Shown piece after piece: positions 1 to 3,904 of a DNA stretch of 64,000 nucleotides. The notes beneath the pieces were generated by a model. The model worked only from the letters and a program-made list of their open reading frames with translations. It searched no databases and was not told where the DNA came from. The stretch comes from Planctomycetota bacterium (GTDB taxonomy: Bacteria > Planctomycetota > UBA1135 > GCA-002748355): positions 1 through 64,000 of the forward strand of contig JALUUL010000010.1 in assembly GCA_027021385.1 (NCBI GenBank), in the 5' to 3' direction. Position 1 is the first letter of the stretch. Every line of letters begins with the position of its first letter. Position numbers and translations under genes: made by a program.

Positions 1-1341
1 GACCTCGGCTTCGCCGGCGGCTTCCTCCGCGCGAAGTCCCTCCTTGATCCGCCGCCAGGATTCGGCGAAGGCGACGGGGCAGGAGAGGAGGCGCTTGCCG
101 AGGATCTCGACGGTGAAACGGCCCGAGCGCCGCTTCGGATTCGGGCCGGATCCGATCGTGGCGTGCACGGCCTTGCGAAAGGCCGCGAAGGCCTCGCTGA
201 GCGCCGCCTCGCGCGGGTTCGACGCCAGGAGGAGGCCACTGGGCGGCAGGCGGCGGCTGAAGCGCGGCGGCGACGTGCGCTCGTTGATCTCACGCTTCAG
301 GCGGCGGACGACGATCTGCCGGATGCGCGCGCGCTGGGCCGGGGCGAGTTCGCTCGTCTGGCTGAAACGCACCGGATCGAGGATCTCGAGCAGGCCCGTG
401 AAAGAGGTCGTGTGTCCGTTGTGCGGGGTGGCCGAGAGGAAGATCCGGTGCTCGAAGTGCGGGGAAATCACCCGCAGCATCTTGCACAGGTCGCTGTCCT
501 CCCTGAACGGCGAGGGTATCAGGTTGTGGCACTCGTCCACGATGAGCAGGTCCCAGGGCAGGTGCGGCGAGCCCTCCGGCGTGCGGCACGAGGCCAGGAA
601 CTGCTCCAGGACGTCCGGCTGGCGGAGATAGTGATAGGAGGTGACGATGCGGCTGAACGAGCGCCAGGGGCTGGCGTCGATGCCGAGACAGCGGCGCAGG
701 CGATGCGTCGCGGCGCGGTCCACGAGTTCGAAGCGCAGGGAGAACTTCTCCCACAACTCCTCGCACCACTGGAGGCGCAACGAGGCCGGCGTGAGCACGA
801 GCACGCGCTGGATCCTGCGCCGCAGCAGGAGTTCCGTCAGGATCAAGCCGGCTTCCACGGTCTTGCCGAGGCCGACGTCGTCCGCGATAAGGAGATTGAC
901 GCGCGGCATGCGCAGCGCCTTCAAGAGCGGTACGAGCTGGTAATCTTCGACCTGCACGGCGCCGTGGAAAGGACTCGCGAAGGGATGGCGATCCAGGGGA
1001 CCCGTCCCGTCGGGGTCGAGGTAAGGCCTGAGCGCCGTCCATCGCGCCGCGCGGACCAGGGCGTCGCAGTCTTCCGGAGGCATCGCGTCCGCCGATGCGA
1101 CCTCCGGTAAGGCCGTCGGTTCGAGAAGACGGCGGTGCGGCTCCAGCTCCCAGAGAAGTCGTTCTCCCGCCGGAAGTTGATCGTCCTTGTACTCGATGTG
1201 CACCAAGTGGAGCCGCCCGTCCTCCCCGTCGAAGGGCTCGACGGCCGCCACGATCCCCCGGCGGTTCCGCACGAAGGCCAGCATCCCGGGACGCGGGATG
1301 CCGTTCTCCGATCTTTCCAATCGATTCGCCGAAGCCTTCAT
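1..1341 (-). CDS. SNF2-family DEAD/DEAH helicase, DrmD-like (C-terminus beyond window)
   Basis: Reading the minus strand from an ATG at 1341 gives 447 codons with no stop before the window edge, so only the N-terminal half is present. Residues 154-161 are the Walker A motif DDVGLGKT, 269-272 are the Walker B box DECH, and SATPH (motif III) follows near residue 305. These are SNF2/RapA ATPase hallmarks. The roughly 150-residue N-terminal leader, ending in VEDYQL and LRMPRVNLLIADD, resembles my recollection of DrmD, the SNF2 helicase of class 1 DISARM anti-phage systems. Other stand-alone SNF2 helicases share this core, so the DrmD label is tentative. Any genes downstream of it lie off the left edge. 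No strong Shine-Dalgarno is seen; AGGGATCGGA lies just upstream of the start. Confidence 0.85.
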   Translation of the reverse strand, partial: MKASANRLERSENGIPRPGMLAFVRNRRGIVAAVEPFDGEDGRLHLVHIEYKDDQLPAGERLLWELEPHRRLLEPTALPEVASADAMPPEDCDALVRAARWTALRPYLDPDGTGPLDRHPFASPFHGAVQVEDYQLVPLLKALRMPRVNLLIADDVGLGKTVEAGLILTELLLRRRIQRVLVLTPASLRLQWCEELWEKFSLRFELVDRAATHRLRRCLGIDASPWRSFSRIVTSYHYLRQPDVLEQFLASCRTPEGSPHLPWDLLIVDECHNLIPSPFREDSDLCKMLRVISPHFEHRIFLSATPHNGHTTSFTGLLEILDPVRFSQTSELAPAQRARIRQIVVRRLKREINERTSPPRFSRRLPPSGLLLASNPREAALSEAFAAFRKAVHATIGSGPNPKRRSGRFTVEILGKRLLSCPVAFAESWRRIKEGLRAEEAAGEAEV

Positions 1342-1529
1342 TCCGATCCCTGCTCGAATACCGCATTCATGGATTTGGGAAGCTGCGCCCGCCAGGTCGT
1401 CTTGCAGATTGCGGGCGCGCCTCGGAACCGGCCTTTCGCGTAGAGGCTGCCGGGCAAGCGGCGCTGCATGACCATGAGAGTCAGCCCGATGTTGCGGTCC
1501 CTCTTAGCCCCGGCCTCATTGCAATTCGA

Positions 1530-1571
1530 GCGGACCTGGTTTGTCCGCGCATCGTAGGAAGGCTTTTCCTA
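1530..1571. repeat. two adjacent small inverted repeats
   Basis: GCGGAC (1530-1535) pairs with GTCCGC (1543-1548) across 7 nt. TAGGAA (1555-1560) pairs with TTCCTA (1566-1571) across 5 nt. No T-run follows on either strand, so these look more like operator half-sites or leader hairpins than terminators. Confidence 0.35.
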
Positions 1572-1656
1572 TGGGGTCAAGCCACAGCCGATGGTTTTCG
1601 TCCGGCGCGCCTCGAAAATCGGGCGGCGGAGAAAACGGTTGCGCTTCCTGCTGATC

Positions 1657-1668
1657 GGGCGATCGCCC
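1657..1668. repeat. 12-bp perfect palindrome
   Basis: GGGCGATCGCCC is exactly self-complementary and lies about 100 bp before the small symporter-partner gene. It could bind a dimeric regulator, but that is a guess, and such palindromes arise by chance in GC-rich DNA. Confidence 0.3.
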
Positions 1669-1766
1669 TCAAAAACATCTTCTTCGGCCGCCCTGTAAGG
1701 ATTGGGACGGTTCCGGGCTTTCCCTATGGTGGCGGGGGAAGGGAGGCCTGGGAGGGGTCCGGAACC

Positions 1767-2036
1767 ATGTTCAAGAGCCGTCATCCGTTGCGTCCCCTGG
1801 CCTGGGCCTTCCTGGCCCTGGTCCCGGCTCCCCTCGCGGGGCTTCCCCTGGCGGGCGGCGAGGTCGCGGCAAGGCTCGAGAAGGGCTTCGCCCTCGCGTT
1901 GTTCCTGTGCGCGCTGGCTGCCTTCCTTCTGACGAGGGAGGGGAAGACCGCGGACCCGGGGGCCGAGGACGGGGGGCGCGCCGAGGAGGGGCGGGGACCT
2001 GAGAAGGGGCCGGGGTCCGACGGCGGGGGGGAATGA
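1767..2036 (+). CDS. small membrane protein, partner of sodium:solute symporter
   Basis: This 89-residue protein begins at an ATG preceded by GGGAGGGG. It has two hydrophobic stretches (about residues 10-30 and 43-60) and then an acidic, Gly-rich hydrophilic tail. Its stop overlaps the symporter start (ATGA at 2033-2036), implying translational coupling. The arrangement recalls small two-helix partners encoded just before some SSS-family symporters (for example the YhdT/PanF type), although I cannot assign it to a named family from sequence. A role as symporter accessory subunit is inferred from position. Confidence 0.7.
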   Translation: MFKSRHPLRPLAWAFLALVPAPLAGLPLAGGEVAARLEKGFALALFLCALAAFLLTREGKTADPGAEDGGRAEEGRGPEKGPGSDGGGE

Positions 2037-3904
2037 TGGCCCTTCACGGGATCGATATCGCGGTCTGCCTCTGGTGTCTCCTCGTGCTCGCCTGGCTCGG
2101 CTTCCGTTTTCCCGGAAGGGCGGGGGGAGGCTTCGAGGACTGGCTGCTCGCCGGAAGGAAACTGCCCTGGGGTCTGCTCGGACTGTCGATGGTCGCGACC
2201 TCCTTCGCCTCCGACACTCCGCTGGCCGTCACGGGGCTCGTCGGCAAGGGGGGCATCGCCGGGAACTGGCTCTGGTGGAGCCTCCTGGCCGGAACGACGA
2301 TGACGGCCTGCCTCTTCGCGGCCCCGTGGCGCCGCAGCCGCCTCGTCTCCGACGTCGAGTTCGCGGCCCTGCGCTACGGAGGGAATCCGGGGGGCTGCCT
2401 GCGCGGATTCCGCGCGCTCTACATGTCGCTGTTCTTCTCGGGGATCATCCTCGCCTGGGTGCTGAAGGCGATGGGGGTCGTGCTCGTCGTCCTCCTCGAC
2501 CTGGATCCGCGATGGAACGACGCGGTTCTCTACGGCCTGGTCGCCCTCGCCCTCGCCTACACGCTGGCCTCGGGGCTCTGGGGCGTCGTCGCCACGGACC
2601 TCGTGCAGCTCGTCCTGGCCTCCTTCGGGGCGGTCGCGCTGGCCGTGCTGGCCTCCGCGGAAGCCGGAGGGCAGGAGGGCCTGCGCGCGCGCCTCGTGGA
2701 CGGACTGCCCGCGGGACCGGCGGGGGGCTTCGACCCCTTTTCCTTCCTCCCCGACCTGGGCGGCCAGGGGCTGTGCGAGGGGGCGGGGCTCCTGCTCCTC
2801 TTCCAGCTCTCGATGCAGTGGTGGGCCGTCGTCTTCCCCGGCAACGAGCCCGGCGGGGGGAGCTATCTCGCCCAGAGGATGCTGGCGGCGCGGAGTCCGA
2901 AGGACGCGAGGCGCGGGATCACGCTCTACGTCCTATTGCACTACGCGCTCCGGCCCTGGCCCTGGATCTTCGTCGGACTCTGGGCCGCGGGTCGTTACGC
3001 CCTCCCCGAGGACCAGGTCGAGAAGGGCTACGTGTTCGCGATGCGCGACCTGCTGCCGCCCGGCCTCCTCGGTCTCGCGCTCGCGGGCTTCCTCGCCGCC
3101 TTTCTCAGCACGGTCGACACGCACCTGAACCTCGCGGCCGGCTACCTCGTGAACGACCTCTACAAGCCCCTCCTCGCGCGTCGCGCCGGTCCGCGCCACC
3201 TCCTGCGAGCCGCGCGCCTCGCCCTCCTCCTCGTCGCGGCCGTCGCGCTCTGGTTCGCCCGGTCGGTGACCTCGGTCGCCGGGGCCTGGAAGATCCTGAT
3301 CGCCCTCGGCGCGGGCACGGGGCTCGTCCTCCTGCTGCGCTGGTTCTGGTGGCGGATCAACGCCTGGTCCGAGATCGCGGCGATGACGGCCTCCTTCGCC
3401 TGCGCCTTCGTCCTCGAACCCGGCCTCCGCGCCTTCGTCCTCGGAAGGGAAGGCGCCGAGGCCTGGTCCGCCTGGTCCGGCCTGCCCGCCTCGCCGATCC
3501 CGGGGGAGGGGGCCCGCCTCTTCGCGATCTTCGGCGCGAGCACCCTGGTCTGGCTCGGGGTCACCCTGATGACGCCCGCGGTCCCCTTGGCGCGGCTGCG
3601 CGCCTTTTACGAGAGAGTCCGACCCTCGGGGCTCTGGGCCCCGGTCTTCGACGGGAAACGCCCGCCCGAACCCGCCGCCGACCTTCGGTCCGCCCTCGTC
3701 GACTGGGCTCTGACGACCTTCCTGGCCTTCTGCCTGCTCTTCGGGGTCGGCAAGCTCTGCTTCGGGGACCCTCTCGCGGCTACGGTCCTTCTCCTCGCGG
3801 CCCTCCTGGCCGGATTCCTCCTCTGGGGGAACGCCGGCGCCGCATCCGCGCCCCGATCGTCTGCCCCCCGAAGAAGGCCGCGACGAGGATCGGAATCGTC
3901 GTGA
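2033..3904 (+). CDS. sodium:solute symporter family (SSS) transporter
   Basis: This 623-residue polytopic inner-membrane protein has about 13-15 hydrophobic segments. The N-terminal pattern (periplasmic start, a DWLLAGRKLPW loop, then a helix with ATSFASDTPLA) is typical of Na+/solute symporters of the SSS family. The LAAFLSTVDTHLN segment around residues 345-357 matches the conserved helix carrying Na+-site Ser/Thr residues. The substrate cannot be predicted. It is co-translated with the small membrane protein upstream. The C-terminal tail of about 25 residues is Arg/Ser-rich and lies antisense to the 3' end of the gene at 3780-4070, so it may be poorly conserved. Confidence 0.92.
   Translation: MMALHGIDIAVCLWCLLVLAWLGFRFPGRAGGGFEDWLLAGRKLPWGLLGLSMVATSFASDTPLAVTGLVGKGGIAGNWLWWSLLAGTTMTACLFAAPWRRSRLVSDVEFAALRYGGNPGGCLRGFRALYMSLFFSGIILAWVLKAMGVVLVVLLDLDPRWNDAVLYGLVALALAYTLASGLWGVVATDLVQLVLASFGAVALAVLASAEAGGQEGLRARLVDGLPAGPAGGFDPFSFLPDLGGQGLCEGAGLLLLFQLSMQWWAVVFPGNEPGGGSYLAQRMLAARSPKDARRGITLYVLLHYALRPWPWIFVGLWAAGRYALPEDQVEKGYVFAMRDLLPPGLLGLALAGFLAAFLSTVDTHLNLAAGYLVNDLYKPLLARRAGPRHLLRAARLALLLVAAVALWFARSVTSVAGAWKILIALGAGTGLVLLLRWFWWRINAWSEIAAMTASFACAFVLEPGLRAFVLGREGAEAWSAWSGLPASPIPGEGARLFAIFGASTLVWLGVTLMTPAVPLARLRAFYERVRPSGLWAPVFDGKRPPEPAADLRSALVDWALTTFLAFCLLFGVGKLCFGDPLAATVLLLAALLAGFLLWGNAGAASAPRSSAPRRRPRRGSESS

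Follow-up and report, generated by a model that had tools for sequence, protein, structure and literature searches.

A truncated DrmD-family helicase gene at a planctomycete contig end is likely the first gene of an ARMADA-like anti-phage array

Among the described anti-phage systems, those closest to the locus considered here are class 1 DISARM and ARMADA. In the first of these the genes are arranged in the order drmD-drmMI-drmA-drmB-drmC, and the YprA-type helicase DrmA, together with DrmB, senses the structure as well as the methylation of DNA ends (PMC9142583). For ARMADA (Bell et al. 2025, PMC12458937), the type II system of E. coli is reported to be anti-phage and non-abortive, and its activity depends on all four genes as well as on intact Walker motifs in the SNF2 helicase. 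According to the same authors, the gene order of ARMADA type I is reversed in many archaea and cyanobacteria, which gives the order that is seen in the relatives of the present locus.

The stretch of DNA analysed in this work (the window) comprises 64,000 nucleotides from a Planctomycetota assembly, and its position 1 is also base 1 of a contig of 70,912 bases (C10); due to this, the contig offers no sequence further left that could be read. At this left edge, a minus-strand open reading frame begins with the ATG at 1341 and stays open through position 1 (Table 1). The visible part corresponds to the first RecA lobe, and it contains a Walker A motif (DDVGLGKT, residues 154-161), a DECH motif (residues 269-272) and SATPH (residues 303-307). 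Its N-terminal leader, PRPGMLAFVRNRRGIVAAVEPF, aligns with the leaders of DrmD proteins (e.g. EPGQLVEVRRRRWVV) and falls within the DrmD profile match. Neither chance nor high GC content accounts for the frame, as complete proteins from four other genomes align with it over 430-450 residues at 60-64% identity; the full-length relatives are about 1,090-1,130 aa long. The preliminary description of this DNA had reported an SNF2 helicase gene running off the window at the left edge, the first two of these motifs and a DrmD-like leader; all three observations are confirmed, and the positions given for the motifs are exact.

Table 1. Coordinates of the features discussed (window positions, unless a locus or contig is named).
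Feature	Position	Strand	Details
SNF2-type helicase, DrmD/ArmA family, N-terminal 447 residues (~40%)	1..1341	-	ORF, profiles, alignment
Intergenic region upstream of helicase gene	1342..1766	.	425 bases, 62.6% GC
Putative sigma-70-like site, TTGACC-18 nt-TACGAT	1551..1580	-	Consensus match, ~210 bases upstream of helicase start
Sodium/solute symporter, right of gap	2033-3904
YprA/MrfA-like helicase, 796 aa	38219-40609	+	MZB and HRQ1-type winged-helix domains
Slot regions between methylase and YprA genes	L090:12150-13895; L095:14326-17037; L054:11858-15029; L053:12085-13323
AAA ATPase after methylase	L024:18119-19381
Synechocystis sp. B12 plasmid copy	L068:16983-34166
Decayed copy in G233	L092:4396-9309
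BREX type 3 locus, same genome	G000:C81:16431-21379 (L107)		PglZ and second SNF2 helicase, near contig end

The NCBIfam model NF038317 (DISARM_DrmD) matches this helicase with 386 bits over 415 of its 1,021 positions, and the PADLOC model for DrmD gives 389 bits, whereas the scores for DpdE (114 bits) and RapA (109 bits) are far lower; Pfam recognises the SNF2/DEAD core only. A best match to RapA/HepA-type helicases, the contrary outcome raised in the preliminary description, was looked for, and DrmD scores highest; as judged from these profile matches, the protein is a member of the DrmD family and not of RapA, in agreement with the family named earlier. It is also very likely a defence gene. 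The NCBI DrmD model has a curated full-length cut-off of 610, and the fragment in the window, being 40% of the protein, falls below it (386). With the same model, the full-length members of the window helicase clade score 649-672, slightly above the cut-off, a true DISARM DrmD (from G213) scores 1377, and the ARMADA ArmA proteins score 301-436. Because the clade members pass the cut-off so narrowly when a true DISARM DrmD reaches more than twice its value, the name assigned automatically, 'DISARM system SNF2-like helicase DrmD', is not diagnostic of DISARM, and for the window gene the word 'DISARM' in it is probably misleading. Since both the NCBI and the PADLOC DrmD models name this lineage 'DISARM', genomes with this lineage will be counted as having a DISARM component despite partners of the ARMADA/Druantia branch.

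In the helicase tree, the window protein forms a clade with the proteins of loci L021-L025 (support 100/100), and in a wider tree it is part of an eight-member clade which also includes G177, G384 and G464 (100/100). In the tree rooted with RapA, whose outgroup branches are long, this clade joins the DISARM DrmD proteins (99/99), and its joining to ARMADA ArmA is rejected (p-AU 0.0036). An unrooted tree with more sequences, in which the position of the root is free, splits ARMADA from DISARM plus the window clade (100/99).

The genes accompanying this helicase were examined in its four closest complete relatives, which are from Rubripirellula, Neorhodopirellula, a Proteobacteria MAG and a Deltaproteobacteria MAG. 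In all four of them the helicase is followed by a methylase of 1,677-1,838 aa, which matches an IIG-type model with 1,340-1,580 bits and DrmMI with 395-452 bits. In the Proteobacteria MAG, the next gene encodes a YprA-family helicase of 1,818 aa with its own MZB, whose best match is to DruE profiles. In Rubripirellula and Neorhodopirellula the YprA helicase (1,944-1,976 aa) lies a few kb beyond the methylase, and after it comes a GajB/UvrD-like helicase of 704 aa whose N-terminus is extended. In the Deltaproteobacteria MAG, the genes that come after the methylase, close to the contig end, encode an AAA ATPase and a transposase, and a matching YprA helicase is located near the end of a separate contig. 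Searching 392 genomes of the phylum brought in four further genomes, namely G177, G464, G384 and G233. Profiles built from DISARM, from ARMADA and from the window lineage were then run on all these loci; some of the loci are themselves profile sources, while G177, G464 and Synechocystis are not. Five contiguous loci (L021/L053, L022/L054, L023/L055, G177 and G464) possess both the methylase of the lineage (~1,700 aa, IIG-type) and a fused ARMADA-type YprA helicase (~1,800-1,980 aa), and the same two partners are present in a frame-broken copy on a Synechocystis plasmid; in G384 the contig ends inside the methylase. This association of partners is found within a single clade, and it counts as one evolutionary event rather than many independent ones.

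The preliminary description had suggested class 1 DISARM, in which case drmD would be followed leftward by drmMI, drmA, drmB and drmC. The best match of the window helicase to DrmD, the scores of its full-length relatives above the NCBI cut-off and the joining of its clade to DISARM DrmD in the outgroup-rooted tree are all in favour of this suggestion. However, no match by profile to DrmA, DrmB or DrmC was obtained in L021/L053, L022/L054, L023/L055, L068, L090 or L095/L096, and no member of the window clade carries these genes, whereas DrmMI, DrmA, DrmB and DrmC were all matched in G213, G204 and G128, whose helicases are of the DISARM type, and the annotated plasmid DISARM loci agree with this. 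Further, the 10 DISARM operons with partners (six annotated plasmid loci, G033, G213, G204 and G128) start with a different lineage of DrmD, which is 35-40% identical to the window helicase among those compared and reaches, in the case of G213, the much higher model score given above, and a DrmB (MZB) match was not found elsewhere in the window genome, where the sole MZB domain is that of a repair-type helicase. A class 1 DISARM system at this locus is thus unlikely, and the earlier suggestion holds for the protein family but not for the system, as the clade loci with readable downstream genes carry a fused ARMADA-type YprA helicase in the place of DrmA, DrmB and DrmC.

The loci of the relatives resemble ARMADA, as described in PMC12458937, in having an SNF2 helicase, a PglX/IIG-type methylase and an MZB-fused YprA helicase in that order. 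The placement of the methylase before YprA is as in the reversed order of type I, and the GajB-like fourth gene of the planctomycete relatives resembles ArmD of type II; ArmD of type II has a RelE-like N-terminus, and a likeness to it in the extended N-terminus of the Rubripirellula and Neorhodopirellula helicases is a judgement by eye only. No match to ArmD was seen in G177, G464 or Synechocystis. The SNF2 helicase of the relatives belongs to the same superfamily as ArmA, which is BrxHII/RapA-like, and occupies the same position in the operon; however, it groups with DISARM DrmD and not with the sampled ArmA proteins in the RapA-rooted tree, and in the methylase tree the window lineage lies on a branch between DISARM and ARMADA. 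In the YprA tree, in contrast, the lineage forms one clade (98/98) that is placed with ARMADA ArmC against DrmA (100/100, and 96/98 in another tree). The ARMADA reference in these trees is the E. coli plasmid locus, whose four genes are arranged as in the published type II, and the references from Thermus, Natribaculum and Tsukamurella are called ARMADA here by their gene layout. All of this comparison is drawn from the relatives, the window itself showing one half of the helicase. What the relatives share with class 1 DISARM is a helicase of the DrmD family and, immediately behind it, a methylase gene; they differ in being without DrmA, DrmB and DrmC and in having a YprA helicase that is one large fused protein from the other major branch; by BLAST, the YprA helicases of the clade match DrmA with E of about 0.004 or worse. 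The likeness to Druantia lies in the YprA helicase of the relatives, for which DruE profiles give the highest scores (353-384 bits); this is a nearest-family call, as no ARMADA-named model is present among the PADLOC matches listed. Druantia systems are not known to include a DrmD-type helicase plus an IIG methylase.

In the C-terminal tails of the YprA proteins, a YLDG...HG...RKD/RRD pattern is conserved, as seen by eye, in four of the six proteins; the other two, which are planctomycete, have an extra tail. The pattern is that of a probable, putative Vsr/PD-(D/E)xK-like nuclease, for which Pfam profiles gave no support and a search of solved structures gave a best E of 0.21. The interval between the methylase and YprA genes differs from genome to genome, with genes for an OLD-like ATPase, a KAP NTPase, a reverse transcriptase-like protein or a TPR protein, and it looks like a swappable accessory slot. 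Between Rubripirellula (L021/L053) and Neorhodopirellula (L022/L054), the YprA helicases are 96% identical and the end branches of the SNF2 helicases are about 0.01, whereas the methylases are only 71% identical, which suggests a recent transfer in which the methylase has changed fast or has been exchanged. In the Synechocystis sp. B12 plasmid copy (L068), each of the three lineage genes is split into several frames and IS elements are present beside and between them, indicating either a decayed copy or a plasmid sequence of low quality. The copy in G233 is decayed, with a late-starting helicase frame, a shortened methylase and a brief fragment of the YprA helicase.

Based on these results, it is likely that the gene in the window opens an anti-phage array of ARMADA-like type with DrmD, the rest of which lies beyond the contig end, since the helicase clade is recovered with 100/100 support and its members carry the methylase and a fused ARMADA-type YprA helicase, without DrmA, DrmB or DrmC. 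The presence of the array in this particular genome we infer from the partners of the clade members. To the left of position 1, one would then expect the remaining part of the helicase (about 650 aa), followed by an adenine methylase of IIG/PglX type (~1,700 aa, ArmB-like), an optional accessory gene and a YprA-family helicase of ~1,800-2,000 aa with its own MZB and a probable nuclease tail (ArmC-like). By analogy, the methylase would label the DNA of the host as self, the SNF2 motor specified by the window gene would move along or remodel unmodified DNA, and the YprA helicase-nuclease would be the effector that unwinds and cuts the invader, with survival of the cell; this likely mechanism is drawn from knowledge of the families and from the published work on E. 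coli ARMADA type II and on DISARM. Two observations are counter to the array reading, viz. that the assembly yielded no partner gene, no C-terminal half and no match to a methylase or to ArmC, and that the helicase by itself groups with DISARM DrmD and not with ARMADA ArmA. We also suggest, tentatively and with somewhat greater doubt than conviction, that these loci represent a distinct lineage between DISARM and ARMADA, with a DrmD helicase, an intermediate methylase, an ARMADA-type YprA helicase and a variable slot before the latter; if so, it either arose by module exchange or survives as a relic from the time when DISARM and ARMADA separated. The lineage may already be included in ARMADA type I as described in PMC12458937, and the parts of its main text covered here do not state the existence of arrays with a helicase of the DISARM DrmD lineage. 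ARMADA itself is recent but described. A lineage in which a DISARM-like motor is paired with an ARMADA-like helicase would also make it possible to ask which protein decides the DNA target, as laboratory representatives exist for both systems and can be compared.

As some of the relatives are decayed (viz. G233), the gene in this genome could also be an orphan or a broken gene, i.e. a remnant of such an array in which the helicase was kept and the partners were lost. The partners are indeed missing from an assembly that is 93% complete: a search across it with the C-terminal 651 residues of a relative found only a paralogue on contig C81, the IIG-type methylase model PDLC03622 (related to DrmMI) had no match in it, and its sole MZB domain is in the 796-aa helicase within the window, which from its domains is probably a DNA repair protein and not a defence protein. 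The decay of the G233 copy and the many frames and nearby IS elements of the Synechocystis copy are also consistent with such a fate. However, the 447 visible codons are intact with all of the motifs present, and the contig merely ends within the gene. The assembly is in 86 contigs, and due to this and its 93% completeness the absence of an island of 13-17 kb is unremarkable. No other contig has the first 25 bases of C10. In three other draft assemblies (L060, G075:C376; L061, G025:C78; and L025) the contigs also end at or near the helicase gene, and two of them (G075 and G025) break inside it, at differing points. The missing partners are therefore best read as an assembly gap, and loss of the array is improbable. 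No viral contig with a relative was found.

The orientation of the helicase, the 425-base gap and the divergent neighbour across it fit the first gene of an operon. The gap presumably holds the helicase promoter. One promoter-like consensus match, a putative site, is present on the helicase strand (shuffles giving a mean of 0.0). The preliminary description had noted here a less GC-rich gap with hairpins and had taken it as the edge of a defence island. The lower GC content is real (62.6% against a window mean of 68.3%, below ~96% of tiles of the same size), but the hairpins are at chance level: in comparison with dinucleotide shuffles the gap shows no excess of folding stability (z -0.85, with 16 of 100 shuffles as stable), its inverted repeats are short ones only, and no terminator-like site was seen in it. 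The first four genes scanned on the right encode a sodium/solute symporter, an MFS transporter, a TPR protein and a polysaccharide flippase; none of them shows defence-island features, and with ordinary transporter and surface-polysaccharide genes as neighbours the proposed island edge is not upheld. No tRNA gene that could serve as an integration site is present in the 64-kb window, and for an empty-site comparison through the symporter, the related genomes offered only distant homologues (40-49%).

A RapA/HepA-type or BREX BrxHII helicase, a very remote reading that draws on the common SNF2 core, on RapA being the solved structure nearest by sequence (75 bits), on the PADLOC BrxHI/HII match (122 bits) and on the presence in this genome, on C81, of a BREX type 3 locus that includes an SNF2 helicase, is ruled out by the profile scores, the identities and the helicase tree. 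The DrmD match has three times the score and extends over the N-terminal leader, RapA is only 33% identical over 198 residues and differs in gene context, and the helicase on C81 is a distant paralogue (32% identity over 257). The PglZ of the C81 locus matches NCBIfam BREX_PglZ_3 with 701 bits, and the SNF2 helicase of that locus is presumably BrxHII.
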